This document shows positions 693 through 63,736 of a DNA stretch of 64,000 nucleotides, piece after piece. This DNA comes from Kitasatospora sp. DSM 101779 (lineage in GTDB: Bacteria > Actinomycetota > Actinomycetes > Streptomycetales > Streptomycetaceae), in NCBI RefSeq assembly GCF_025655475.1, contig NZ_JAHTIK010000001.1, positions 7,424,315 to 7,488,314 on the forward strand, read 5' to 3'. A program made the translations under genes and the position numbers. Within the stretch, counting starts at the first letter, position 1; every line of letters begins with the position of its first letter. The notes beneath the pieces were generated by a model. That model ran no database searches. It was not told the DNA's origin and was given only the letters and a program-made list of their open reading frames with translations.

Positions 693-1697
693 ATGACCGT
701 CAACCTGAACGGCCGCCACTACCTACGCGAGTTCGACTTCACCGCGGCCGAGATCCACCGCCTGCTCGACCTCGCCGCCGAGCTGAAGGCCGCCAAGCGG
801 AGCGGCACCGAAGTCCCGCGGCTGACCGGCCGCCGTCTCGCGCTGATCTTCGAGAAGAACTCCACCCGGACCCGCTGCGCCTTCGAGGTCGCCGCGGCCG
901 ACCAGGGTGCCACCACCACCTACCTCGGCCCCGACAGCTCCCACATCGGCCACAAGGAGTCCGTCGCCGACACCGCCCGCGTGCTCGGCCGGATGTACGA
1001 CGGCATCGAGTACCGCGGCTTCGCCCGGGCCACCGTCACCGGACTCGCCGCGCACGCCGGCGTCCCCGTGTACAACGGCCTCACGGACGAGTGCCACCCC
1101 ACCCAGAGCCTGTGCGACGTCTTCACCATGCGCGAGCACAGCGGCAGGCCGCTGGAGCAGATCTCCTTCTGCTACCTCGGCGACGCACGCAACAACACCG
1201 CCAACTCGCTGATGGCGATGGGCAGTCTGCTCGGGCTGGACGTGCGCGTCGCCGCGCCGCGCGAACTGTGGCCGGATCCGTCCCTGGTAGCGGAGTGCCT
1301 GCTGCGCGGCCGGGACAGCGGCGCCCGGCTCACCCTCACCGAGGAGGTCGACGAGGCCGTGCGCGGCGCGGACTACCTCTACACCGACGTCTGGGTCTCG
1401 ATGGGCGAGGACCACGGCCGGTGGAAGGAGCGCATCGACCTGCTGCTGCCGTACCAGGTCAACGCCCGGACGATGGCCGCGACCGGCAACCCAGACACGG
1501 CATTCCTGCACTGCCTGCCCGCCCTGCACGACCTCGGCACCGACCTCGGCGCCGAACTCGCCGAGCAGCACGGACTGGACGGCCTCGAAGTCACCGACGA
1601 GGTGTTCGAGTCGCCGGCGTCGCTGGTCTTCGAGCAGGCCGAGAACCGGATGCACACCATCAAGGCGATCCTCGTCGCCACCCTCGGGAGGGACTGA
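693..1697 (+). CDS. arcB: Ornithine carbamoyltransferase (catabolic, arc operon)
   Basis: A 334-residue enzyme interconverting citrulline plus phosphate and ornithine plus carbamoyl phosphate. The carbamoyl-phosphate loop STRTRCAFE, the ECHPTQ motif and the FLHCLPA ornithine-binding motif are all present, and the length is normal for the family. I chose the ATG at 693 because it is preceded by CCGGAGGACG and gives the usual short N-terminus ([16 protein letters not shown]); longer in-frame extensions run through arcA. Its position between arginine deiminase and carbamate kinase argues for the catabolic role, although sequence alone does not separate catabolic from biosynthetic enzymes. Confidence 0.95.
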
Positions 1698-1699
1698 CC

Positions 1700-2674
1700 G
1701 TGCACATCGTCGCCGCCCTCGGCGGAAACGCCCTGCTCCGGCGCGGGGAGCACCCCGACGCCGCCGTCCAGCAGCAGCACGTCCACGACGCCGCCCGGTC
1801 GCTCGCCGAACTCGTCCTCGCCGGGCACGAGGTGGTGATCACCCACGGCAACGGTCCGCAGGTCGGCCTGCTCGCCGCCGAGAGCGAGGCCGACCCGGCG
1901 CTGGCCGCGCCCTACCCGCTGGACGTCGTCGGAGCCGAGACCCAGGGCATGATCGGTACCCTGCTCGCCCGCGAGCTCGGGTCCCGCCTGCCCGGACGGG
2001 CCGTGGCCGCGCTGATCACCCACACCGAGGTCGACCCGCACGATCCGGCGCTCGGGCGGCCGGACAAGTTCGTCGGAGGACACCTCACGGACCGCCAGGC
2101 CCGGCTCATGGAGGCCGAACGCGGCTGGACCACGGCGCGTGACGGCGACCGTCTGCGCCGCACCGTGCCCTCGCCGCGGCCCGTCGCGATCACCGAAATG
2201 CCGGCGATCCGCGCCCTGCTCGCCACCGGCACCGTGGTCATCGCCGCCGGAGGCGGCGGCATTCCGGTCGTCCGCGACCCGGACACCGGGCGCGTCCGCG
2301 GCGTCGAGGCCGTGGTCGACAAGGACCTCACCGCCGCCCTGCTCGCCGAACTGCTCGACGCGGACGCCCTGCTGATCCTCACCGACGTCACCCACGTGTT
2401 CACCCGCTTCGGCGCCGCCCACCCCGGTCCGATCACCGATGTCACCCCCGACGGGCTGCGTGAACTCGACCTGCCCGCAGGCTCGATGCGGCCCAAGGCC
2501 GAGGCCGCGGCCGCCTTCGCCGAGACCGCCGGGCGGGTCGCCGTGATCGGACCGCTGGACGACGCCCTCGGCGCACTCCTCGGCACCACCGGCACCACCG
2601 TCCGTCCGCGGCTGCCCGGCCCGGCCGCCCCGGGGCCGGCAGCCCGCCCGCCGGCGCCCCGAACCGCAGTCTGA
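1700..2674 (+). CDS. arcC: Carbamate kinase
   Basis: A 324-residue enzyme that transfers the carbamoyl phosphate group to ADP, giving ATP, ammonia and CO2, the energy-yielding last step of arginine fermentation. Amino-acid-kinase family motifs are clear: the N-terminal ALGGNALL, THGNGPQVG, the AAGGGGIPV segment and VVDKDLTAALLA. It starts with GTG only two bases after the arcB stop, so translation is probably coupled. The C-terminal tail is Pro/Ala-rich and unlikely to be catalytic. Confidence 0.95.
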   Translation: MHIVAALGGNALLRRGEHPDAAVQQQHVHDAARSLAELVLAGHEVVITHGNGPQVGLLAAESEADPALAAPYPLDVVGAETQGMIGTLLARELGSRLPGRAVAALITHTEVDPHDPALGRPDKFVGGHLTDRQARLMEAERGWTTARDGDRLRRTVPSPRPVAITEMPAIRALLATGTVVIAAGGGGIPVVRDPDTGRVRGVEAVVDKDLTAALLAELLDADALLILTDVTHVFTRFGAAHPGPITDVTPDGLRELDLPAGSMRPKAEAAAAFAETAGRVAVIGPLDDALGALLGTTGTTVRPRLPGPAAPGPAARPPAPRTAV

Positions 2675-2696
2675 ACCCACCACGAAGGGAACCCCG

Positions 2697-3482
2697 ATGA
2701 ACCGTCTGCAGACCCGCCCCGCCACCGGCGTCCGGGTGGAGACCCGCGGCGAGGTCACCCTCGCCGCGCCCGACTACGCCCGCACGAAGCTGCTCGCCGT
2801 GCTGGAGCGGCTGGACGAGCCCGTCCTCGCCGCCCGGGTGAAGCTCACCCAGGAGCCCAACCGCGCGGTGGCCGAGCCCTCCCGCGCCCAGGCCGTGGTC
2901 GACCTCAACGGCAGGCCCGTACGGGCCCACGTGGCGGCCGCCACCATGCAGGAGGCGATCGACCTGCTCCAGGACCGGCTGAACGCGCGGATCGCCCGCG
3001 TCCGCCGTCACCACGAGCACCACCGCCACCACGGGACGGCCCCGGATGCCGGGACCGACGGCACCGGCCACGGGCCCCGCCCGCAGCGGGCCGCCCGGAG
3101 CACCGGGGACCGCCGGATCGTGCGGCACACGTCCTACAGCCCGGCGCGGCAGACCCCCTGGGAGGCGGTGCTCGAACTGGAGGCGATGGACTACGACTTC
3201 CACCTGTTCACGGACGCGGCGGGCGGCGGCGACAGTGTGGTCCACCGGGACGCCGCCGACGGCGGGTACCGGCTGGCCACGGCCGGTCCCCGGGCCGATC
3301 AGGTCCCGGGCCTGCCGGCGAGCACCGTGGGCGCGCCGGAACTCACGGTCGCGGACGCGGTCGAGCGCCTCGATCTGAGCGGTCTGCCCTTCGTGTTCTT
3401 CACCGACGCCGAGACCGGTCGCGGCAACGTGCTCTACCACCGCCACGACGGCCACTACGGCCTGATCACCCCCGTGCGGTAG
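2697..3482 (+). CDS. Ribosome hibernation factor, RafH/HPF-like with two C-terminal domains
   Basis: A 261-residue protein. Residues about 5-105 look like the S30AE/HPF ribosome-binding fold ([20 protein letters not shown] through a helix ending in [13 protein letters not shown]). A His-rich linker of about 30 residues follows. Then come two consecutive HPF C-terminal dimerisation-type modules: one around [19 protein letters not shown] and one at the very end around [19 protein letters not shown]. Ordinary long HPFs carry one such module. Two are typical of the mycobacterial hypoxia factor RafH (Rv0079/MSMEG_3935). It probably binds 70S ribosomes or 30S subunits in stasis. It is 22 bases behind arcC, preceded by GAAGGGA, so it is co-transcribed with arginine fermentation genes. 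Confidence 0.85.
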
Positions 3483-3801: not shown

Positions 3802-3817
3802 GGGCCCGATCGGCCCT
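3802..3817. promoter_or_regulatory. DevR/OsdR-type box upstream of phosphoketolase
   Basis: GGGCCCGATCGGCCCT, one of the 13 related palindromes in the window; it ends 83 bases before the phosphoketolase ATG. The name is inferred from the accompanying gene set. Confidence 0.65.
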
Positions 3818-3900: not shown

Positions 3901-6285
3901 ATGCCCACGACCCCGAGCCCGGTGCCCGGCCCCCTGTCCGAGGAGGAGCTGCGGTCGCTCGACGCCCACTGGCGGGCCGCCAACTACCTCGCCGTGGGAC
4001 AGATCTACCTGATGGCCAACCCGCTGCTGCGCGAGCCGCTGCGCCCCGAGCACATCAAACCGCGGCTGCTGGGGCACTGGGGCACCTCGCCGGGACTGAA
4101 CCTGGTGCACACCCACCTCAACCGGGTCGTCAGGAACCGCGACCTGGACGCGATCTGCGTGTGGGGCCCCGGACACGGCGGCCCGGCCGTGCTGGCGAAC
4201 TCGTGGCTGGACGGCAGCTACTCCGAGACCTACCCGGACGTGAGCCGGGACGAGGCGGGCATGGCCCGGCTGTTCCGTCAGTTCTCCTTCCCCGGTGGAG
4301 TGCCGAGCCATGTCGCGCCGGAGACCCCGGGCTCGATCCACGAGGGCGGCGAACTCGGCTACGCGCTCTCACACGCGTACGGCGCGGCCTTCGACAGCCC
4401 TGGGCTGCTGGTCGCCTGCGTGATCGGCGACGGCGAGGCCGAAACAGGCCCGCTGGCCGCGTCCTGGCACGGCAACAAGTTCCTCGACCCGATGCACGAC
4501 GGTGCGGTGCTGCCGATCCTGCACCTGAACGGCTACAAGATCGCCAACCCGACGGTGCTGTCCCGGCTGCCCGAGGGCGAACTCGACGCCCTGCTGCGCG
4601 GCTACGGCCACCTCCCGCTGTACGTCACCGGCACCGACCCGGCGGCCGTCCACCGGGCGATGGCCGAGGCCATGGACACCGCCCTGGACCGGATCGCCGC
4701 GATCCAGTACGAGGCCCGCACCGACGGGTCCACCCGGCGCCCGCACTGGCCGCTGATCGTGCTGCGCACCCCGAAGGGATGGACCGGCCCGGCCGAGGTC
4801 GACGGCCTGCCGGTGGAGGGTACCTGGCGGGCCCACCAGGTACCGCTCGACCAGGTCCGGGACAACCCCGGCCACCTCGCCCAGCTGGAGGCCTGGCTGC
4901 GCTCCTACCGTCCCCGGGAACTCTTCGACGAGCACGGCAGGCCGGCCGCCGACGTGCTGGCCTGCATACCCGACGGCACCCGCCGGCTCGGGGCCAACCC
5001 GCACGCCAACGGCGGCCTGCTACTGCGCGACCTGCCGCTGCCGGACCTGGACCGCTACGCGGTTCCGGTGGACAAGCCGGGCAGCACCCGGCACGAACCC
5101 ACCCACGTCCTGGGCGGTCTGCTCGCCGATCTGATGGCTGCCACCGCCGACCGCCGCGACTTCCGCCTGGTCGGCCCGGACGAGACCGCCTCCAACCGGC
5201 TCCAGGCCGTCTACACCGTCACCGGCAAGGCCTGGCAGGCCGACACCCTGCCCGTCGACGAACACCTCGCCCGGGACGGCCGGGTCATGGAGATCCTCTC
5301 CGAACACACCTGCCAGGGCTGGCTGGAGGGCTACCTGCTCACCGGACGCCACGGCCTGTTCTCCTGCTACGAGGCGTTCGTCCACATCGTCGACTCGATG
5401 GTGAACCAGCACATCAAGTGGCTGCGCACCACCCGCGCCCTGCCCTGGCGGGCGCCGATCGCCTCGCTCAACTACCTGCTCACCTCGCACGTCTGGCGCC
5501 AGGACCACAACGGCTTCTCCCACCAGGACCCGGGCTTCGTCGACCACGTCCTCAACAAGAGCCCCGAGGCCGTCCGGGTCTACTTCCCGCCGGACGCCAA
5601 CACCCTGCTCGCCACCGCCGACCACGTCCTGCGCAGCCGCGACCACGTCAACGTCGTCGTGGCCGGCAAGCAGCCCTGCTTCGACTGGCTCACGCTCGAC
5701 GAGGCCCGCGTCCACTGCGCCCGCGGCGCCGGGATCTGGGAGTGGGCGGGCACCGACGACGGCGGCCGCGAACCCGATGTCGTGCTGGCCTGCGCCGGCG
5801 ACGTGCCCACCCAGGAGATCGTGGCCGCGGCCGGCCTGCTGCGCCGTGACCTGCCCGACCTGGCCGTGCGGGTGGTGAACGTCGTGGACCTGGCCCGGCT
5901 GATGCCAGCCGAGGAGCATCCGCACGGCATGCCGGACGCCGAGTTCGACGCCCTCTTCACACGCGACCGGCCGGTGGTCTTCGCGTACCACGGCTACCCG
6001 TGGCTGATCCACCGCCTCGCCTACCGCCGGGCCGTCCACCCCCGGCTCCACGTGCGCGGCTACAAGGAGTCCGGCACCACGACCACTCCGTTCGACATGG
6101 TCGTCCGCAACGACCTCGACCGCTACCGGCTGGTCATGGACGTCATCGACCGCGTTCCCGGCCTCGCCGTCCGGGCCGCCGCCGTGCGGCAGGAGATGGC
6201 CGACCGGCGGACCCGCCACCACGCCTGGATCCGCGAACACGGCACCGACCTGCGCGAGGTCGCCGACTGGACCTGGAGCAGCTGA
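3901..6285 (+). CDS. xfp: Phosphoketolase (xylulose-5-P/fructose-6-P)
   Basis: A 794-residue thiamine-diphosphate enzyme cleaving xylulose 5-phosphate and/or fructose 6-phosphate with phosphate to acetyl phosphate, a route to ATP without respiration. Diagnostic segments include [30 protein letters not shown], the ThDP-binding region [21 protein letters not shown] and the C-terminal [10 protein letters not shown] and [15 protein letters not shown]. Length matches the family. The ATG at 3901 follows GAGGCAGCC and a palindromic box. In-frame upstream extension (from 3736) is compositionally intergenic. The sequence does not decide between Xpk and Xfp specificity. Confidence 0.95.
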
Positions 6286-8383: not shown

Positions 8384-8399
8384 GGGGCCGGTCGGCACT
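8384..8399. promoter_or_regulatory. DevR/OsdR-type box upstream of ABC exporter
   Basis: GGGGCCGGTCGGCACT. The left half is canonical and the right half has one deviation (GCACT for GCCCT). It lies 64 bases before the ATPase ATG. Confidence 0.5.
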
Positions 8400-30858: not shown

Positions 30859-30874
30859 GGGGCCCATCGGCCCT
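30859..30874. promoter_or_regulatory. DevR/OsdR-type box upstream of GNAT-synthetase fusion
   Basis: GGGGCCCATCGGCCCT, 88 bases before the ATG at 30963. Confidence 0.65.
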
Positions 30875-30962
30875 GGCCGCGCCACCCGCGCCGGAGGACG
30901 GTGGAGGGAGCAGTGCCCGGGCCGTACGAGCGATGCCGCCGGGCCGGACCGAGGGAGTCGCC

Positions 30963-33707
30963 ATGTCAGTCACCGAGCCGCCGGTGTCCGCGGTCGAGGC
31001 ACTGCTCGCCGACGGGACGACCGTCCTCCTCAGGCCCGTCGAGGCCGGGGACCGTGCCGCCGTCCTGGACCTGCACGAGCACGGGATGTCCGACGAGAGC
31101 CGCCGGATGAGGTTCCTCGGCACGAGCCGCCGGGCCGCCGAGATGGTCGCCGACCGGCTCTGCGGCCCCGGCCGGGCCGGTGTCCTGGCCCTCGGCGCCT
31201 GGGCGGACGGCGAGCTGGTGGGGGAGGCGGACTGCCAGGCCGTCGAGGAGAGCGGCGGGACTGCCGAGCTGGCGATGGCGGTCGCCGACGCCTGGCACCA
31301 CCGCGGAGTCGGCACCCTGCTCGTCGAGCACCTCGTCCATGCCGCCCGCAAGCGCGGCATCCACGAGTTCGTCGCCGACACGCTGGCCGGCAACCGGGCC
31401 GTCCACAAGGTCTTCTCCGACCTCGGCCTGCCCGTCCACCGGCACCTCGACCACGGCGAGATCCGGGTGCGCGTCCCGCTCGACGAGGACGACGAGGGCT
31501 ACCTCCGCGCCGTCGACGAACGCGGCCGGACGGCCGACCTGGCCAGCCTGGCCGCGCTGCTGCGCCCGCGGTCGGTCGCGGTCGTGGGCGCGTCCCGCCG
31601 GGCCGGATCGGTGGGCCGCACCGTCCTGCTGAAGCTCCGCCGGGGCGGCTTCACCGGGCCGGTGTGGGCCGTGAACCCGCACACCGGGGTGATCGCCGGC
31701 GAGCCCGCGTACCCGGGGATCGCCGAGCTGCCCGGGGTGCCGGACCTCGCCGTGCTCGCCGTGCCGCCGTCGGCCGTGCCCGACGCCGCCGAGGAGTGCG
31801 GCCGCGCGGGCACGAAGGCGCTCGTGGTGCTCACCTCCGGCCTGGACGCGGCACAGGCACGGCAACTGGTGCACAGCTGCCGGCGCCACAGCATGCGCCT
31901 GGTGGGGCCCAACAGCCTCGGCATCGCCCAGACCGATCCGGAGGTCCGGCTGGACGCGGAGTTCGGCGGGGCCTTCCCGCTGCCCGGCAGCGCCGGGGTC
32001 GCCGTGCAGTCCGGGGGCGTGGGCATCGCCCTGCTGGAACGCCTCGCCTGGCTGGGCATCGGCGTCTCCACCTTCGTCTCGCTCGGGGACAAGTACGACG
32101 TCAGCGGCAACGACCTGCTGCAGTGGTGGGAGAGCGACGGCCGGACGGACCTGGCCCTGCTGCACCTGGAGTCCTTCGGCAGTCCGCGGGCCTTCGCCCG
32201 GACGGCGCGGCGCGTGACCCGGACCCTGCCGGTGCTCACCGTGGACGCCGGGCGCTCCGCTGCCGGCCGCCGCGGCGCCGCCTCGCACACCGCCGCCGCC
32301 GCGACGCCGACCGTCACCCGGGAGACGCTCTTCCGCCGGGCCGGGATCACCGCAGCGCGCAGCATCGCCGAACTCGTCGAAGCCGCCGCCCTGTTCCACA
32401 CCCAGCCGCTGCCCGGCGTGCACGGACGCGTGGCGGTGGTCTCCAACGCCGGCGGGATCGGCATCCTCGCCGCGGACGCGTGCGCCGAGGCCGGGCTCGA
32501 ACTGCCGCCGCTGCCCGCGGACACCGTCGCCGAACTGCGCGCACTGCTGCCCGCCGCCGCGGGGACGGCCAACCCGGTCGACACCACCGCGGCCGTCGGC
32601 CCGGCCGAGCTCAGGGGCTGCCTCGACGCGCTCGCGCGGGCCGACACCGTCGACGCCCTGCTGGTCTGCCTCGTGCCGACCGCGCTCGTCCAGGACGACG
32701 CCGACCAGCCGCTCCACGCGCTGCTGGACGGCCCGGGCCGCCGGCGGCTGCCGGTCGCGGCGGTCCTGCTGGACCAGGAGGTGCCCGTCCAGTACCGGAC
32801 CTGCGCGGACGGCGGACAGCTGCCGTCCTACTCGGACCCGGCCGCCGCCGCACGGGCCCTCGCCCACGCCCGGGACCGCGCGAGGTGGCTGGCCGAACCG
32901 CCCTCCGCCCCGGCCGCCCCGCCGGACACCGACACAGCCGCCGCCCGCCGCCTGGTCGACGCCTTCCTCGCCGCCCACCCCGACGGAGGCTGGCTCGACC
33001 CGGAGACCACCACCGGTCTGCTCGGCCACTACCGGCTGCCGCTCACCACGGCCGTCCTGGCGCGGACCGAGGACGAGGCCGCGCTCGCCGCCCGGACGCT
33101 GGGCCCGCTCGGCCACGAGGGCCGCGTCGCGGCCAAGGCCTACTGGCCGGACCAGGTGCACAAGAGCGCCGAAGGCGCCGTCCGCCTCGGCCTCGGCGGC
33201 GAGACCCAGGCCCGGGAGTGCTACCGGGAGTTCCACGACCGCTTCGGCGACCGGACGGCCGGCGTGGTGGTCCAGCCCATGGCCGCACCCGGCCTGGAAC
33301 TGCTGGTCGGCGCGGTGCAGGACGAGGTGTTCGGCCCGCTGGTCCTGCTCGGCCTCGGCGGTACCGCGACCGATGTCCTCGCCGACCGCACCGCCCGCCT
33401 CGCCCCGCTCACCGAACGCGATCTGGAGACCATGCCCGCCGACCTCAGGGCGGCGCCGCTGGTGCTCGGCCGGCCGGGCGCGCCGGGTGCGGACCCGGCC
33501 GGGCTCCACGCGGTGCTCGCCGCCGTCTCCGCCCTGGCCTGCGACCTGCCGCAGGTCGTCGAGGTGGACCTCAACCCGCTGATCGCCCGGCCCGACGGGG
33601 TCGTCTGCGTGGACGCCCGGGTCCGGGTCGCGCCCAGGCCCTCCTTCGACCCGTACCTGCGGCGGCTGCGCCGTCCGGCCGTGGCCGGGGAGGCGGGCGG
33701 CCCCTGA
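30963..33707 (+). CDS. GNAT acetyltransferase fused to NDP-forming acyl-CoA synthetase (Pat-like)
   Basis: A 914-residue fusion. Residues about 15-165 are a GNAT domain (TVLLRPVEAGDRAAVLDLHE, and the acetyl-CoA loop VADAWHHRGVGTLLVEHLV). A CoA-binding domain (LLRPRSVAVVGASRRAGSVG), a succinyl-CoA-ligase-like region with the phosphohistidine-type segment AASHTAAA (His442), and a C-terminal ATP-grasp domain (AAKAYWPDQVHKSAEGAVRLGL; VVEVDLNPLIARPDG) follow. Domain order with GNAT first resembles the Streptomyces lysine acetyltransferase PatA rather than enteric Pat, where GNAT is last. In Pat proteins the synthetase part is usually inactive; here the active-site His is present, so synthetase activity cannot be excluded. 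Confidence 0.88.
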   Translation: MSVTEPPVSAVEALLADGTTVLLRPVEAGDRAAVLDLHEHGMSDESRRMRFLGTSRRAAEMVADRLCGPGRAGVLALGAWADGELVGEADCQAVEESGGTAELAMAVADAWHHRGVGTLLVEHLVHAARKRGIHEFVADTLAGNRAVHKVFSDLGLPVHRHLDHGEIRVRVPLDEDDEGYLRAVDERGRTADLASLAALLRPRSVAVVGASRRAGSVGRTVLLKLRRGGFTGPVWAVNPHTGVIAGEPAYPGIAELPGVPDLAVLAVPPSAVPDAAEECGRAGTKALVVLTSGLDAAQARQLVHSCRRHSMRLVGPNSLGIAQTDPEVRLDAEFGGAFPLPGSAGVAVQSGGVGIALLERLAWLGIGVSTFVSLGDKYDVSGNDLLQWWESDGRTDLALLHLESFGSPRAFARTARRVTRTLPVLTVDAGRSAAGRRGAASHTAAAATPTVTRETLFRRAGITAARSIAELVEAAALFHTQPLPGVHGRVAVVSNAGGIGILAADACAEAGLELPPLPADTVAELRALLPAAAGTANPVDTTAAVGPAELRGCLDALARADTVDALLVCLVPTALVQDDADQPLHALLDGPGRRRLPVAAVLLDQEVPVQYRTCADGGQLPSYSDPAAAARALAHARDRARWLAEPPSAPAAPPDTDTAAARRLVDAFLAAHPDGGWLDPETTTGLLGHYRLPLTTAVLARTEDEAALAARTLGPLGHEGRVAAKAYWPDQVHKSAEGAVRLGLGGETQARECYREFHDRFGDRTAGVVVQPMAAPGLELLVGAVQDEVFGPLVLLGLGGTATDVLADRTARLAPLTERDLETMPADLRAAPLVLGRPGAPGADPAGLHAVLAAVSALACDLPQVVEVDLNPLIARPDGVVCVDARVRVAPRPSFDPYLRRLRRPAVAGEAGGP

Positions 33708-41690: not shown

Positions 41691-41706
41691 AGGGCCGACC
41701 GGCCCC
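41691..41706. promoter_or_regulatory. DevR/OsdR-type box, USP-ATPase side
   Basis: AGGGCCGACCGGCCCC, 67 bases from the USP start at 41623; the first of two boxes in this divergent promoter. Confidence 0.75.
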
Positions 41707-41775: not shown

Positions 41776-41791
41776 AGGGCCGAACGGCCCC
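41776..41791. promoter_or_regulatory. DevR/OsdR-type box, OsmC side
   Basis: AGGGCCGAACGGCCCC, 126 bases from the OsmC start. A weaker overlapping copy (AGGACCGGACGGCGCG) begins at 41759. Confidence 0.75.
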
Positions 41792-44378: not shown

Positions 44379-44452
44379 GCCCGACCGGTGCGGCACGGGA
44401 GGCGGACGCGCAGAATCGGGGAAGACACACCACACAGGTGCAGGAGGCCGCC

Positions 44453-45145
44453 ATGGACCCGACCCGGGAGGGCGACACCGAACAGGCCGTCCGGGTGTTC
44501 CTGCTGGACGACCACGAGATCGTGCGGCGGGGAGTGAAGGACCTGCTGGACGCCGAACCCGACATCGAGGTCGTCGGCGAGGCGGGCACCTGCGCCCAGG
44601 CACTCGCACGGGTGCCCGCCCTCAAACCCCGGGTGGCCGTTCTCGACGTGCGACTCCCCGACGGCGACGGCGTCACCGTCTGCCGGGAGCTGCGTGACCG
44701 GATGCCCGACCTGGTCTGCCTGATGCTCACCTCCTTCGACGACGACGACGCACTGCTGGACGCGATCATGGCCGGGGCGGCGGGCTACGTCCTCAAGCAG
44801 GTCAAGAGCGCGGACCTGGTCAACGCCGTGCGCACGGTGGCGGCGGGCGAGTCGATGCTCGACCCGGCCACCACCCGCAAGCTGATGGAGAGCCTGCGCC
44901 ACCACGACGAGACCGACACCGAGGCCCTGCTCGACCAGCTGACACCGCGCGAGCGCGAGATCCTCGCCCTGGTGGGCGAGGGCAAGACCAACCGGCAGAT
45001 CGGCAAGGAGCTCTACCTCGCCGAGAAGACCGTCAAGAACCACGTGTCGCGGCTGCTCGCCAAACTCGGGGTCGAGCGGCGCCTGCAGGCCGCCGTCCTG
45101 GCCGCCCAGGTCGACACGGAGCACCGGTCGTCGCACCCGCACTGA
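44453..45145 (+). CDS. DevR/OsdR-like response regulator (NarL family)
   Basis: A 230-residue two-component regulator. The receiver domain carries the phosphoacceptor Asp65 (VAVLDVRLPDGDG), switch Thr93 (MLTSF) and Lys115 (GYVLK). The LuxR-type HTH (LTPREREILALVGEGKTNRQ, LAEKTVKNHVSRLLAKLGVE) matches mycobacterial DevR closely, including the DNA-contact residues of EKTVKN (Lys192, Lys195, Asn196; equivalents of Lys179, Lys182, Asn183 from family knowledge). It is the obvious candidate reader of the 16-bp palindromes. The ATG at 44453 follows CAGGAGGCCGCC. The partner kinase is at 46370-48088. Confidence 0.93.
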   Translation: MDPTREGDTEQAVRVFLLDDHEIVRRGVKDLLDAEPDIEVVGEAGTCAQALARVPALKPRVAVLDVRLPDGDGVTVCRELRDRMPDLVCLMLTSFDDDDALLDAIMAGAAGYVLKQVKSADLVNAVRTVAAGESMLDPATTRKLMESLRHHDETDTEALLDQLTPREREILALVGEGKTNRQIGKELYLAEKTVKNHVSRLLAKLGVERRLQAAVLAAQVDTEHRSSHPH

Positions 45146-45164: not shown

Positions 45165-45180
45165 CGGGCCGCTCGGCCCA
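45165..45180. promoter_or_regulatory. DevR/OsdR-type box upstream of nitroreductase
   Basis: CGGGCCGCTCGGCCCA, 203 bases before the nitroreductase ATG and 20 bases after the response-regulator stop, the longest box-to-start distance in the set. Confidence 0.6.
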
Positions 45181-46369: not shown

Positions 46370-48088
46370 TCAGGCGGCCGGCAGCGGCACCCGCCAGACC
46401 AGCTCGGTGCCGCCCCCGGGGCGGCTGCGGGCGTCGAACCCGCCGCCCATCGCGGCCGCCCGTTCGGCCAGGTTGGCCAGGCCGCTGCGCCGCCCGCCCT
46501 CCGGCAGGCCGATGCCGTTGTCCGTGATCGTGAGCACCAGGTCGGCACCGGCGGCGAGCGCCACCTCCACGGAGGTGGCCTCGGCGTGCCGGGCCGCGTT
46601 GGAGAGTGCCTCCTGCAGGACGGCGAGCGCCTCCTCCGCCGCCTCCGGCGGGACGGTGACGTCGATCAGACCGGTCATCCGCAGCGCCGGGGTGAACCCG
46701 AGGACGGCGGCCGCCCGGTCCACGGTCTCCACGACGCGCGCCCGCAGTCCCTTGCCGCCCGGTCCCGACCGCCCGGCCCGCAGGCCGAAGATGGTCGACC
46801 GGATGGTCTTGGCGGTCTCGTCGAGGTCGTCGATGGCCCGCAGCACGCGGTCGGCGGCCTCCGGGTGCTCGATGAACCGGATGGCGCCCTGCAAGGTCAT
46901 CCCGGTGGCGAAGAGGCGCTGGATGGCCAGGTCGTGCAGGTCGCGGGCGATCCGGTCGCGCTCCTTGAGCAGGGAGACCTGTTCGGAGTCGCGGCGCCGC
47001 TCCGCCAGCTCCATCGCCACGGCGGCCTGCGCGCCGAAGCCCTTCAGCGGAGCGGACTCGTCCGCGTCGAAGAGCGGTGCGCCCTCGGCCCGGGCGAGCA
47101 TGAGCACGCCGCGGATCCCGCCCTCGGCGGTGCCGATCGGTACCGCGAGCGCGGGCCCCAGCCCCTCCCAGCGCGGTGGCCCGACGGTGATCCGCGGGTC
47201 CTTGCGGACGTCCGCGCTGACCGCGAGGTCGGCCGACTGCACGGCCGCGCCCATGAAGGAGCCGCTGACCGGCAGCACCAGGCCCTGGTGGTCGGAACCG
47301 CGCAGGCCGACCGCGATCCGGACTTCGAGCTCCTGCGTCCGCGGGAGGCAGAAGGCCACGACCGCGAGGTCCGCACCCGCGATCTGGGACGCGCGGGTGA
47401 CCAGCAGGTCGAGCACCGCCTGCTCCGGCTCGCCGGAGAGCAGGCTGCTGGTGACCTCGGCACCGGCGGTCAGCCAGCGTTCCCGCAGCCGTGCCTGCGT
47501 GTAGAGGCGGGCGTTGTCGATCGTCACGCCCGCGGCCACCGCGAGTGCGGCGAGCACCGCCTCGTCCTCGGCGTCGAACCCGCCGCCGCCGCGCTTCTCC
47601 GTCAGGTAGAGGTTGCCGAAGACCGTGTCCCGTACGCGGATCGGCACCCCCAGGAAGCTGTGCATGGGGGGATGGCCGGCCGGGAAGCCGACCGACGACG
47701 GATGGTCCGCGATCTCGCCGAGCCGCAGCGGCGCCGGGTGGCGGATCAGCTCACCCAGCAGCCCGCGCCCGGACGGCAGCGGACCGATCCGCTCCCGTTC
47801 CTCGTCGCTCACGCCCACCGGGATGAACTGGGCCAGGGTACGGTCCTCACCGATCACCCCCAGGGCGCCGTACTCGGCGTCCACCAGCGTCACCGCCGCC
47901 TCGACGACGTGCCGCAGGGCCTGGGTGAGCTCCAGGTCCCGTCCGACGTCCAGCACGGCCTCCAGCAGGCTGTGCACCCGGTCGCGGGCGTGGCGGGCGG
48001 CGTCCAGCCGGGCCTGGAGCTCGTCGAGCAGGTCGTCGAGGCGGAGCTGCGGCAGCGGGGACGTGCCGTCCTCGCGGGCGATTCCCAC
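46370..48088 (-). CDS. DevS/DosT-like GAF-GAF sensor histidine kinase (heme sensor)
   Basis: A 572-residue cytosolic kinase: GAF-A (about 55-190), GAF-B (about 215-365), a HisKA_3 dimerisation helix with phosphoacceptor His385 (RIARDLHDLAIQRLF) and HATPase_c (NAARHA, TDNGIGLP). Alignment by eye to M. tuberculosis DosS gives a constant offset of 10. His139 (GHPPMHSFLGVP) corresponds to heme ligand His149, Tyr161 (GNLYLTEK) to Tyr171 and Gly77 to Glu87. Thus heme sensing of O2/NO/CO is likely, with the DosT-like Gly at the channel position. No membrane segment. GTG at 48088 follows GGAGGGGACGAC. Confidence 0.93.
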   Translation of the reverse strand: MGIAREDGTSPLPQLRLDDLLDELQARLDAARHARDRVHSLLEAVLDVGRDLELTQALRHVVEAAVTLVDAEYGALGVIGEDRTLAQFIPVGVSDEERERIGPLPSGRGLLGELIRHPAPLRLGEIADHPSSVGFPAGHPPMHSFLGVPIRVRDTVFGNLYLTEKRGGGGFDAEDEAVLAALAVAAGVTIDNARLYTQARLRERWLTAGAEVTSSLLSGEPEQAVLDLLVTRASQIAGADLAVVAFCLPRTQELEVRIAVGLRGSDHQGLVLPVSGSFMGAAVQSADLAVSADVRKDPRITVGPPRWEGLGPALAVPIGTAEGGIRGVLMLARAEGAPLFDADESAPLKGFGAQAAVAMELAERRRDSEQVSLLKERDRIARDLHDLAIQRLFATGMTLQGAIRFIEHPEAADRVLRAIDDLDETAKTIRSTIFGLRAGRSGPGGKGLRARVVETVDRAAAVLGFTPALRMTGLIDVTVPPEAAEEALAVLQEALSNAARHAEATSVEVALAAGADLVLTITDNGIGLPEGGRRSGLANLAERAAAMGGGFDARSRPGGGTELVWRVPLPAA

Positions 48089-48180: not shown

Positions 48181-48213
48181 GTGGTCCGTCGGGGGCGGAT
48201 CGGCCCGGCAGGC

Positions 48214-48229
48214 AGGACCGAACGGCCCT
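48214..48229. promoter_or_regulatory. DevR/OsdR-type box, CBS-BON side
   Basis: AGGACCGAACGGCCCT, 64 bases before the CBS-BON start at 48294. Confidence 0.75.
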
Positions 48230-50682: not shown

Positions 50683-50698
50683 GGGGCCGTTCGACCCT
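50683..50698. promoter_or_regulatory. DevR/OsdR-type box upstream of DUF1876-USP-XRE operon
   Basis: GGGGCCGTTCGACCCT, 113 bases before the DUF1876 start. Confidence 0.65.
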
Positions 50699-58578: not shown

Positions 58579-58594
58579 AGGGCCGGTCGGCCCC
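58579..58594. promoter_or_regulatory. DevR/OsdR-type box upstream of USP
   Basis: AGGGCCGGTCGGCCCC, 158 bases before the USP start at 58420 and beyond the hydrogenase operon's last stop. Confidence 0.7.
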
Positions 58595-58632: not shown

Positions 58633-59124
58633 TCACCGCACACCGCCGGACGGCGGCCTCGGTCGCTGCCCGGCCCGCACGGAGTCGGCCACCAACCGGA
58701 CGAGGGCGGGCAGTGCCGACCGGACGGGGCCGGTGAGACCGACCCCTGCGGTGAAGTCCGCACCCTCGACCGCGTGCACGACCAGTGCGCGCGGCAGCCG
58801 GTCGAGGGCGGCGGCCAGGGCCACCGTCTCCGCGAGGCCGAGTCCGTGCGTACTGGCGGTCGTGGCCGCCAGCGAGGCGGCCCGTTCGGCCCGGACGGTG
58901 TGCAGCCGGCCGGGGCGCCCGGCCGGGGAGCGGAGCGCCTCGGCGACGACCACGGTGTCGGCCGGCCGCCACATCTCCAGCAGCCGGCCGGGATCGCCGT
59001 CGCTCACCGCGAGGACCGCGGCCGCCGTGCCGCGTGCCCTCAGCGCCTCGACCACGGCCGGCCCGGCCCCATCGTCACGGCGGAAGGGGTTGCCGACCCC
59101 GATCACCACCACCCGGCCGGTCAT
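58633..59124 (-). CDS. Hydrogenase maturation endopeptidase
   Basis: A 163-residue HyaD/HycI-type protease (VVVIGVGNPFRRDDGAGPAVVEALRA), which removes the C-terminal tail of the large subunit after nickel insertion. The early Asp of RDDG matches the metal-ligand position, and ASTHGLGL fits the family His region. The start overlaps the large-subunit stop by four bases, which points to its partner. Confidence 0.9.
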   Translation of the reverse strand: MTGRVVVIGVGNPFRRDDGAGPAVVEALRARGTAAAVLAVSDGDPGRLLEMWRPADTVVVAEALRSPAGRPGRLHTVRAERAASLAATTASTHGLGLAETVALAAALDRLPRALVVHAVEGADFTAGVGLTGPVRSALPALVRLVADSVRAGQRPRPPSGGVR

Positions 59125-60467
59125 TCCCGTTCCACCGTCAGGTCGAGGAAGTGCGCGGCGCAGGAGATACACGGGTCGTGGTTGCGGACCGCCCGCTCGC
59201 ACAGCGCGACGAGTTCCCCGTCCCCGACCGCGGAGCGGGACCGCGCGAGCCGGGCTCCGACCTGGCGGCGGAGGTCCTCCTCGACGGCCGCCTGGTTCTG
59301 CGCGGTGGGCGGCACGATCCGCGCCCGGGTGACGGCGCCGTCGGGGCCGAGCGCGTAGCGGTGGTACAGCAGGCCGCGGGGTGCCTCGGTGACGGCGCAG
59401 CCGACGGCCTCGCGGACGGGTACCGCCACCTGGGCCCGGGCCGGCGGCCGGTAGCCCTCGATGATCAGCAGCGCCTCCTCCAGCGCGTGCACCACCTCGA
59501 CGGCCCGGACCACGATGCTGCGGTACGGGTTGCGGCACACCACGCCCGCCGTGGGATCGCCGAGTCCCGAGCCGCGCGCCGCCTCCGCGGCCGTCGGGTG
59601 CAGCCAGCGCCCGTTGAGTGCGTAGCGGGCGAGGGCTCCGGTGAGGTGCGGGCGGCCGTCCAGCCTCGACTGGAGCGCCGTCGAGTACGGCACCTGCTCC
59701 TCGACCACGCGATTCTCGAACTCCGTGACGGGAAAGCTGCGCCGGCCCTCCCTGCTCTCCGGCGCGGGCAGCACGGCGGGCGCGCCGGAGTCGATCGCGT
59801 AGCGGCCCGGGTCGTGCAGGGCCAGGAACTCGCCGTCGAACGAGGCCTCCGGGAAGTCGAAGCCGCCGACCCAGCGCACCGTTTCCAGCGCCTCGTCCCG
59901 AGCCCGGCGCAGTCGCTCGGCCAGTGGGACGAGTTCGGTCCGCGACGGGGTCCGGTAGAAGCCGCCGACCCGGACGTTGACCGGGTGGATCGGCCGCCCG
60001 CCGAGCACCTCCACCACCGCGTTGCCCGCCTGCTTGATCCGCAACCCGCGTTCCACGGCCGCCCGGTGTCCGCGGGCGGCCTCGACGGCATCGGCGCAGC
60101 CGAGGAAGTCGGGGGCGTGCAGCAGGTGGATGTGCAGGGACTGACTCTCGATCCATTCGCCGTAGTACAGCAGCCGGCGCAGCTGCGCCACCGGTCCGTC
60201 GACGGTGACTCCGCAGGCCGCCTCGATGGCCTGGCATGCCGTCATCTGGTACGCGACCGGGCAGATCCCGCAGATCCGGGCGGTGAGGTCGGGGGGCTCG
60301 GTGTGCCCCCGGCCGACCAGGAAGGCCTCGAAGAAGCGGGGCGGCTCGTAGATCCGCAGCTCCGCGGCGACGACCTCGCCGCCCCGCAGACGCAGCCGGA
60401 CGGCCGCCTCGCCCTCCACCCGGGCCAGGGCGTCCAGGCGCAGCACCCGCGAAGGCCCGCGGCTCAC
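59121..60467 (-). CDS. [NiFe] hydrogenase large (alpha) subunit, group 3b type
   Basis: A 448-residue catalytic subunit. The proximal nickel-ligand motif is [19 protein letters not shown], and the distal motif [18 protein letters not shown] ends the protein with a short tail that is presumably cleaved after the His. The pairing with a diaphorase-type gamma subunit identifies bidirectional NAD(P)-linked group 3b enzymes such as mycobacterial Hyd3. It oxidises H2 or evolves it to dispose of reductant. GTG start at 60467, overlapping the small subunit stop (GTGA). Confidence 0.93.
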
Positions 60468-61297
60468 CGCGGCTCCTCCGTGCCGAGCCCCTCGGCGATC
60501 TCCGCGACCGGACCGTACTCGGGCGCCGCGGCGTTGAAGGTGCGGAAGACACGGACGACGTCCCGCTCGGACATGCCGTCCCGTCCGAGTTGACGGATCA
60601 TCGACTCCAGGTTGGGGTCGGCCACCGGCCCGAAGCACCCGTAGCAACCGCGCTTGTACGTGGGGCAGATCGCGCCGCATCCGGCGTGGGTGACCGGGCC
60701 GAGGCAGGGTGTGCCGTGGGCCACGGTGACACAGGTGGTGCCGCGGATCTTGCACTCGTAGCAGACGCTGTGCGCCGGGACGCCGGGCTTGCGTCCGGCC
60801 AGGTACGCCGTGATCACCTCGATCAGCTGGCGCCGGTCGATCGGACAGCCGCGCAGCTCGAAGTCGACCGGGACGTGCGCCGAGACCGGGGTGGAGGTGT
60901 CGAGGGTCGCGATGTACTCGGGTCGGGCGTAGACGGCGGCGCGGAACTCGGTGACGTCCGCGAAGTTCCGCAGTGCCTGGACGCCGCCGGCGGTCGCGCA
61001 GGCGCCGATGGTGACCAGGCGACGGGAGATCCCGCGGATGTGTCGGATGCGCCGGGCGTCCTCGTCCGTGGTGATCGAGCCCTCGACCAGTGACAGGTCG
61101 TACGGCCCGGCGCCCTGCAGGCCTGCCGCACCCCGGGAGCCCGTGCCCTCGGCGCTGCTCATCTCCAGGAAGTGGGAGATGCTCACCCGCCCGGCCAGCG
61201 GCAGCAGTTCGTCCTCGCAGTCGAGCAGGGTCAGCTGGCAGCCGTCGCAGGAGGCGAACTTCCACACCGCCAGGGTCGGCCGGTCGGCATCGTCCAT
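60464..61297 (-). CDS. [NiFe] hydrogenase small (delta) subunit
   Basis: A 277-residue iron-sulfur subunit without a Tat signal, hence cytosolic. [20 protein letters not shown] supplies proximal-cluster cysteines, [18 protein letters not shown] is the classic mid-segment, and [29 protein letters not shown] and RGCYGCFGP hold the further cluster ligands. It passes electrons from the large to the gamma/beta subunits. Two bases separate it from the gamma-subunit gene. Confidence 0.93.
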
Positions 61298-61299
61298 GT

Positions 61300-62097
61300 C
61301 TACAACTCCCTCACCGAAAGCAGTTGCCGGGAGACGGCGCAGTCGACCACCGGGCCGTCGCGGCACAGCAGCAGCGGTCCGAGCTGGCAGTGGCCGCAGT
61401 GTCCCGTTCCGCAGCGCATGTTGCGCTCCAGCGAGAGCTGGACCCGCCCGGGCGGCACGCCCCGTGCATGCAGCGCATCCGCGGTGTGCCGCATCATCAC
61501 CTCCGGCCCGCAGACGAGCGCCGTGGCGGTTTCCGCTCCGACGGCCACCCGGTCGAGCAGGGCGGTCACCACGCCGACGCTGCCCCGCCACTGCGGAGTC
61601 GGCCGGTCCACCGTCACCTCCACTCGGCATTGCTCGCGCCACCCGGCGAGTTCGCCGGGGAAGAGGAGGTCCGCCGGGGTCCGCGTCCCCACCAGGACGG
61701 CGAGGCGGGCGGCGCGGCCCAGCAACCGGTGCACGGCCGGCCGCAGCGGAGCCAGCCCGAGGCCACCCGCGACCACGAGGACATCGGAGCCGTCCGCCGC
61801 GTCGAGGTTCCAGCCGCTGCCGAACGGGCCGCGCAGGCCGAGGGTTTCGCCGGGGGCGAGCTTGCAGAGCGCTGCCGAGACGGCGCCGACCGCGCGGACG
61901 GTGAAGGTCACCGTGCCGTCGCCGACGACGCTGACGGAGATCGGCACCTCCCCGACGCCGAAGGCGTACACCATCGCGAACTGCCCGGGAGCGAACGCGG
62001 GCAGGGTCGCGCCGTCCGCGGCGAGGGTGAGCGAGACGCAGTCCGGGGTTTCGGGCCGGGACGACAGCACCCGGTACGGGACGGGCACGGTGCTCAC
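61300..62097 (-). CDS. Hydrogenase gamma subunit (FAD/NAD(P)-binding diaphorase)
   Basis: A 265-residue ferredoxin-reductase-like subunit: FAD-binding barrel ([29 protein letters not shown]), NAD(P)-binding domain ([34 protein letters not shown]) and a C-terminal [2Fe-2S] motif ([21 protein letters not shown]). It links H2 turnover to NAD(P)H. The GTG start overlaps the preceding stop (GTGA). Confidence 0.92.
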
Positions 62098-62551
62098 GGC
62101 GGACCGCCTCCGTCCGGTGCGTAGAGGTCCACCAGGCGCAGCCGGGCGGCCTGGAGGCGCTCGGCGATCACGGCGGCGCAGTGCAGGGCCAGCCGGAGAC
62201 CGAACTCCGGTTCGGCCTCGCACAGCGCCCGTACCCGGTGCGCAGGGAACTCCCAGGCCGAGACCGGGCCGAGCGTCCGGGCGCCGAGGTGCCAGTGGTA
62301 CGGCGGGAAGAGCCACGACCAGCCCAGCAGCTGGCCGGCGCCGACCGTCTCGACCACCGGCGGCCGACGCCCGGGCACGTGCAGATCGAGGGCGACCTCG
62401 CCCGACCGGAGCAGCCAGAACCGGTTGGCCGATCCGCCCTCGTCGAACAGGCGCATGTCCGCCGGGAATTCGCGGTCGTCGGCGAGGCCGAGGAGGCGGG
62501 CCCGGTGCGGGGCGGAGAGGCCGTCCAGCAGTGGCTGCGGCTGTCGTTCCG

Positions 62552-62555
<4 letters not shown>
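62094..62555 (-). CDS. Cyclic-nucleotide-binding-fold protein of the hydrogenase operon
   Basis: A 153-residue protein with a single cNMP-binding beta-roll ([55 protein letters not shown]) and a C-helix, but no DNA-binding domain. Such genes are a regular part of group 3b hydrogenase operons. A role as regulatory subunit or electron-transfer partner is inferred. It overlaps both neighbours by four bases. Confidence 0.85.

Positions 62556-63736
<1,181 letters not shown>

Follow-up and report, generated by a model that had tools for sequence, protein, structure and literature searches.

In type I enzymes such as E. coli PatZ and S. enterica Pat, an ADP-forming acyl-CoA synthetase (ACD) part and a GNAT acetyltransferase domain lie on one chain. 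In the type II enzyme PatA of Streptomyces lividans (SlPatA), which acetylates lysine (PMC4053389, available sections), the GNAT comes first and the ACD second, in about 900 amino acids (aa). According to the available sections of a 2021 review (PMC8556138), the synthetase parts of both types lack the catalytic His, are therefore inactive and serve to sense acetyl-CoA. Here we describe a GNAT-ACD fusion of 914 aa encoded in a 64,000-nt stretch of Kitasatospora sp. DSM 101779 (GCF_025655475.1, contig NZ_JAHTIK010000001.1, positions 7,424,315-7,488,314, forward strand). This whole stretch is called the window, and all coordinates are window coordinates. The Kitasatospora host is a soil actinomycete. 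Like SlPatA, the window protein is of type II and of similar length; the known catalytic residues of its synthetase part look intact. We favour, at a probability of roughly 0.55, the reading that it belongs to a dormancy regulon of DevR/OsdR type and that its synthetase part would work as a reversible ADP-forming acyl-CoA synthetase. The GNAT is probably active as well.

The catalytic mechanism of a true synthetase is best followed in the two-domain ADP-forming enzyme Nmar_0206 (8wzu), in which phosphate passes from ATP to H535, then to H256, then to an acyl phospho-intermediate that yields acyl-CoA (PMC11494057, in the part available). The loop His is likewise essential in DddX, where His292Ala is inactive (PMC8163506, in the part available). 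No characterised GNAT-ACD fusion retaining this His was found in the literature searched, including the available parts of PMC8556138, PMC4053389, PMC6434083 and PMC8007912; subscription papers lay mostly outside this scope, so that the result is no proof of absence.

Domain anatomy and catalytic residues of the fusion

The fusion and its parts are located as follows.

30963..33707, + strand: GNAT-ACD fusion protein, 914 aa (open reading frame; ATG at 30963, stop codon ends at 33707)
30993..31472, + strand: GNAT domain (aa 11-170), with the Glu102 codon at 31266-31268 and the CoA loop HHRGVG at aa 112-117 (Pfam; sequence and structural match to the S. lividans PAT GNAT, 4u5y/4nxy)
31548..32882, + strand: ACD alpha part with CoA-binding, phospho-His and ligase domains, about aa 196-640 (Pfam; sequence and fold matches)
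32169..32171, + strand: Glu403 codon, E215 of Nmar_0206 (alignment; Glu in 153/153 proteins)
32286..32288, + strand: His442 codon, swinging-loop phospho-His, H256 of Nmar_0206 (alignment and column conservation)
32985..33629, + strand: ATP-grasp_5 domain, aa 675-889 (Pfam; structural match to 4xym_B)
33159..33161, + strand: His733 codon, ATP-grasp phospho-acceptor His, H535 of Nmar_0206 (alignment; His in 114/120 fusions outside the PatA clade)

An earlier note on this DNA had proposed an N-terminal GNAT joined to an acyl-CoA synthetase, and the reading frame bears this out. Every Pfam domain lies above its cut-off, in the order GNAT (PF00583, aa 75-155), CoA-binding_2 (203-322), Succ_CoA_lig (341-478), Ligase_CoA_2 (490-555) and ATP-grasp_5 (675-889, E 3.1e-54). 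The last match spans model positions 7-221 of 221, so the ATP-grasp region is complete, as had been supposed. The start at 30963 is putative, since our own gene calls offer an alternative in-frame ATG at 30933.

Among sequences of solved structure, the closest match is the ADP-forming 4-hydroxybutyryl-CoA synthetase 8wzu (E 4.1e-87, aa 198-889), followed by E. coli PatZ, a 3-hydroxypropionate ligase, Ca. Korarchaeum ACD1 and DddX. With Nmar_0206 and the Ca. K. cryptofilum ACD1 (4xym), to which it is 24-29% identical, the window protein shares both phospho-His residues, the Glu and the ATP-grasp fold, and with 8wzu also the domain order; in contrast to them it adds the N-terminal GNAT and carries SHTA in place of SHTG. 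PatZ is 28-29% identical over the ACD part; unlike the window protein, PatZ and Pat have the reversed domain order, and PatZ has Asn-Thr at the position of His442-Thr443 (9it0 alignment). The GNAT has the fold of the SlPatA domain (4u5y/4nxy, Z 21); when the two proteins are compared through this domain, the window GNAT matches 4nxy with an E value of only 1.1e-14.

Residue 442, which lies within GAASHTAAAATPT, is His. In a hand-counted alignment with Nmar_0206 it corresponds to H256, while H733 (in QVHKS) corresponds to H535 and E403 to E215. His442 had been named in the earlier note as the retained active-site residue, and its recurrence in all 120 proteins outside the PatA clade (see below) means that it is not there by chance. 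On the acetyltransferase side, the position of Glu102 holds E or D in 153/153 proteins and Gly115 is invariant.

An AlphaFold model built from 36 sequences has a mean predicted local distance difference test score (pLDDT) of 80.4 and a predicted template modelling score of 0.59, and its domains are mostly good. The modelled ATP-grasp part superposes on 4xym_B (Z 23.8, 2.1 Å, 224 residues) and the modelled GNAT on 4u5y (Z 21.4, 2.0 Å, 163 residues). Foldseek and VIA-align matches of the model comprised known folds only, with ADP-forming synthetases, DddX and PatZ at the top.

Conservation among relatives and the PatA clade

Homologues were sought in 150 genomes including that of the host, and matches were obtained in 144. 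Proteins from 111 loci (one further match, L003, gave none) and from the best 80 of 151 confirmed loci were made non-redundant, giving a set of 153. The intact class was at first defined by its His motif; this definition was dropped as circular, and a tree built with the loop (428-456) and the ATP-grasp motif (722-742) masked was used instead. In this tree 33 PatA-type proteins form one clade with a support of 1.0, which does not hold the window protein. Because the set was gathered with the window protein as query and sampling was uneven, the ratio of 120 to 33 is not a frequency.

It can be seen that the clade and the remainder differ sharply at the loop. Column 442 is His in 120/120 proteins outside the PatA clade and in 0/33 inside. 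Column 733 is His in 114/120 and 26/33 respectively, and column 403 is Glu in every protein on both sides (120/120 and 33/33). Altogether nine columns are near-fixed outside the clade (at least 118/120) and lost inside it (at most 3/33), among them H442, K377, G498 and N537. PatA proteins retain H442 in 0/33, K377 in 0/33, G498 of the NAGG motif in 0/33 and N537 of the NPVD motif in 1/33, and the window protein has all four. Because His442 is present, we do not file the window protein as a PatA orthologue.

Within the PatA clade, the loop aligned to aa 423-462 lacks His442 in 32/33 proteins that nonetheless have a Gly-His about two residues earlier; the loop differs in length, being one residue shorter in 24/33, one longer in 7 and four or five shorter in 2. 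This Gly-His is a candidate for a repositioned phospho-His.

The distribution of constraint along the chain was compared as mean identity over 400 random pairs. The window group takes in the window protein and every other member of the set with at least 50% identity to it, 109 in all; here the phospho-His domain ranks first (0.832), ahead of CoA-binding (0.621), ATP-grasp (0.616), ligase (0.586) and finally GNAT (0.552). Therefore, constraint in this group is on the synthetase half. The corresponding values for PatA are 0.656 for GNAT, 0.651 for phospho-His, 0.597 for CoA-binding, 0.540 for ATP-grasp and 0.496 for ligase.

The host encodes both kinds of fusion. Its locus L002, which falls in the PatA clade, is a 37% identical paralogue of the S. 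lividans PatA kind; it lacks the loop His, and between its GNAT and that of S. lividans PAT the E value is 5.7e-87. Four matches to ATP-grasp_5 exceed the cut-off in the host genome: the fusion, L002, a 437-aa frame (putative SucC) and a short partial match in a 359-aa frame. Only the first two are full-length ATP-grasp_5 fusions, and the loop His occurs in the window fusion alone of the two. A further stretch of the host genome, L003, is interrupted by one stop and resembles aa 77-233 only weakly (34%).

Fusions of this kind are not confined to close relatives. TIGR02717 matches occur in 106/119 genomes from other parts of the phylum. Fifty of these loci were analysed: the 30 best, and 20 more picked because their scores were high and their frames long. 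Good synthetases are thus over-represented, and weaker members fall outside the draw. By our own profiles 20 are GNAT-first, 9 are GNAT-last and 21 have no detected GNAT. Within this biased draw His stands at both columns (442 and 733) in 50/50 loci, including all 29 GNAT fusions; thus retention of the predicted synthetase His residues is widespread among fusions. The earlier note had treated the intact synthetase part as an oddity of this protein, which does not hold, as it is common to all 120 non-PatA fusions and the 29 sampled outer ones. Its premise that the synthetase parts of Pat enzymes are dead fits the reviewed enzymes and the PatA clade (0/33 with His442) but is no family rule, since 29/29 outer fusions keep both His residues. 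The window fusion is thus an uncharacterised variant of a known fusion and not singular. In public annotation, a Tsukamurella plasmid carries a 35% identical relative whose name begins 'bifunctional GNAT family N-acetyltransferase/acetate--CoA ligase', and the name given to a 72% relative on a Kitasatospora plasmid is 'GNAT family N-acetyltransferase'.

In a wider tree PatA is nested among intact GNAT-first fusions, and for this reason the PatA state looks derived. The node that includes 15 of the 20 such fusions has a support of 1.0, as has the placement of the intact L077 as sister to PatA, and a midpoint root of the motif-masked tree puts two intact proteins, L076 and L077, on the PatA side. 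The suggestion rests on a weak branching order (0.509 at the node joining L077 and PatA to the other 36 window-side proteins, 0.39-0.48 at the deepest type II nodes) and on the biased sample of outer fusions.

A hypoxia-type box and its neighbourhood

A hypoxia-type box upstream of the fusion had also been proposed. The OsdR consensus is the 16-mer AGGGCCGATCGGCCCT (PMC5069765, in the part available), and a site with 2 mismatches to it stands before the gene. The regulatory features of the window are the following.

30859..30874, + strand: OsdR/DevR-type box GGGGCCCATCGGCCCT, 88 bp before the ATG at 30963
3802-3817, 8384-8399, 41691-41706 and 41776-41791: further OsdR/DevR-type boxes (16-mer scan)
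45165-45180, 48192-48229, 50683-50698 and 58579-58594: further OsdR/DevR-type boxes (16-mer scan)
3901..6285, + strand: phosphoketolase (XFP; profile match), with the box at 3802-3817
44438..45145, + strand: DevR/OsdR-type response regulator (best PDB match M. tuberculosis DevR 3c3w, E 8.3e-73)
46370..48088, - strand: GAF sensor kinase, putatively of DevS/OsdK type from its place (Pfam GAF, HisKA_3, HATPase_c)

With up to 3 mismatches, the 16-mer gave 13 sites in the window against 1.05 expected (maximum 3) from 20 sequences of a first-order Markov model, and 11/13 of these sites fall in the 16.5% of the window outside our own gene calls. Two other patterns were set aside: a loose 14-mer of DosR type, GGGNCNNNNGNCCC, was not enriched (13 against 13.25 expected) and was replaced by the published 16-mer, and GGGACNNNNGTCCC with up to 2 mismatches was below chance (76 against 130 expected).

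The box is conserved with the fusion among close relatives. Within 300 bp upstream, and at up to 3 mismatches, it is found at 20/20 fusion loci of one set, at 55/78 of a second set and at 1/20 PatA genes, whereas shuffled upstream regions, preserving base composition only, gave 0.1, 0.4 and 0.0 respectively. The second set comprised 80 loci, 2 of which were dropped for short upstream regions, and 11 of the first 20 are also among the 80.

Genes behind the further boxes include phosphoketolase, a universal stress protein (USP)/OsmC gene, nitroreductase, DevS/CBS-BON, g41 and a USP; the phosphoketolase, which the earlier note had named as a source of acetyl phosphate, lies in the same island and has its own box. 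As in the OsdR (S. coelicolor) and DevR (M. tuberculosis) regulons, the box is accompanied by a response regulator and a GAF kinase, with USP, nitroreductase and pyruvate-phosphate-dikinase-type genes nearby. The island resembles a DevR dormancy regulon. The OsdR table in the available part of PMC5069765 names no GNAT-ACD, and the promoter site of the window fusion is a predicted one.

When 20-kb neighbourhoods of 20 loci each were compared (14 genomes shared), with a list of island genes chosen from the window, the fusion had 5.4 listed genes per locus in its surroundings and PatA had 0. The PatA clade to which L002 belongs is therefore unlike the window protein both in neighbours and in the near-absence of the box. 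Over 100 fusion loci (the sets of 20 and 80 together, with the overlap of 11 noted above), neighbours included CBS-BON at 70, one USP type at 51, nitroreductase at 43, a DevR-type regulator at 41, the NiFe hydrogenase large subunit at 31 and phosphoketolase at 11. With so few loci sharing phosphoketolase, a link between the fusion and acetyl phosphate from that enzyme is conjectural. In the window, NiFe hydrogenase-type genes occupy 58633-63736 (large and small subunits, NAD-binding and 4Fe-4S proteins). At the island edge, 693-3482, lie genes for an ornithine carbamoyltransferase, an amino-acid-kinase family protein (by its position probably a carbamate kinase) and an S30AE ribosome hibernation-type protein.

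Proposed function and its alternatives

Under the favoured reading, His733 would be phosphorylated by ATP and would hand the phosphate on to His442. The swinging loop that bears His442 would then carry the phosphate over to the CoA-binding site; an acyl phosphate would form there, and its acyl group would pass to CoA. Under oxygen limitation the synthetase may run either toward acyl-CoA (scavenging) or toward acid and ATP (energy). The GNAT would use acetyl-CoA to acetylate an amine, probably a protein lysine. The substrate would be a short-chain acid, most likely acetate. The anatomy, the catalytic residues with their conservation, the promoter box and the neighbourhood are observed; from these we infer both activities, which the earlier note had also thought possible, as well as the direction of the reaction, the substrate and the regulation in this strain.

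Several observations weigh against this reading. E403 and H733 alone do not prove activity, because the PatA clade keeps E403 (33/33) and mostly H733 (26/33). H733 is lost in L053-L057 (5/120, all of the same genus), and in four of these the surrounding motif has decayed, while H442 is retained. An in-frame stop splits the fusion in L171 (6044-8824), a Streptomyces coelicoflavus relative, by sequencing error or as a pseudogene. A close copy (E=0) is present in just 33/69 genus genomes besides the host's own. The loop reads SHTA where most ACDs compared have SHTG, a variant found also in L239, L243 and L244, and position 112 of the GNAT CoA loop is His (85/116) where Q or R is usual. In the model, pLDDT falls below 50 at aa 403-407 and 429-447 (the His loop), so that it gives no active-site geometry. 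The top NCBIfam model, acetate--CoA ligase alpha TIGR02717, scores 352.8 bits and does not reach its cut-off of 567.15. Finally, acetate kinase and an AMP-forming Acs are encoded in the host genome; therefore, acetate handling need not depend on the fusion, and the pathways present leave no gap that would require acetate to be its substrate.

A possible but unlikely alternative is that the protein is a sensor like PatA, in which the ACD part, with little or no turnover of its own, would serve to bind acetyl-CoA and to control the GNAT, His442 being a leftover. This is the model reviewed for type I and II enzymes (PMC8556138, in the part available), the fold resembles that of E. coli PatZ, and H733 and its motif have decayed in L054-L057 while the rest stays. 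However, the reviewed model rests on a missing catalytic His, which the window protein has; it has also retained each of the four positions that PatA has lost jointly, and no part of the chain is better conserved than the His domain.

Slightly less probable, in our estimate, is an ADP-forming ligase for an acid other than acetate, with the GNAT as an accessory or acting on a small molecule. The ACD superfamily covers 4-hydroxybutyrate and 3-hydroxypropionate ligases, and also DddX, a dimethylsulfoniopropionate lyase that is not an acetate-CoA ligase according to its authors (PMC8163506, in the part available); the low conservation of the GNAT would fit too. On the other hand, the gene before the fusion is divergent and the gene after it convergent (own gene calls), leaving no operon partner that hints at another acid, and of the NCBIfam models it is acetate-CoA ligase alpha that scores best, although the score does not reach the cut-off.

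An extension of the favoured reading, which we regard as doubtful, would make the protein a self-feeding bifunctional enzyme. Its synthetase would make or drain acyl-CoA for its own GNAT, so that acylation would be set by local acid, ATP and CoA and not by bulk acetyl-CoA, and the GNAT would acetylate DevR as a metabolic feedback on dormancy. The DNA-contact lysines K179/K182 of DosR are kept in the window DevR as K197/K200 (hand-counted), and K182, the counterpart of K200, is acetylated in M. tuberculosis (PMC5861037, in the part available).

Least probable of all is a phospho-switch, in which ATP or acyl phosphate would phosphorylate His442 and the phospho state would control the GNAT, net acyl-CoA synthesis being incidental: it would account for the retention of H442 in L054-L057 despite the loss of their ATP-grasp His motif, a pattern not expected of a pure synthetase, but E403 and the ligase motifs are also kept and the literature searched on such fusions gave no precedent.

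Taken together, the window fusion represents a subclass that keeps the catalytic residues compared here and lies behind a dormancy-type box, alongside a PatA-type paralogue in one genome. If the synthetase works, the hypoxia response would be tied to acylation and acyl-CoA chemistry within one chain, and PatA would have descended from such enzymes as a pseudo-enzyme, with traceable losses (H442, K377, NAGG and NPVD). With both paralogues in one genome, the question of activity is open to direct test.

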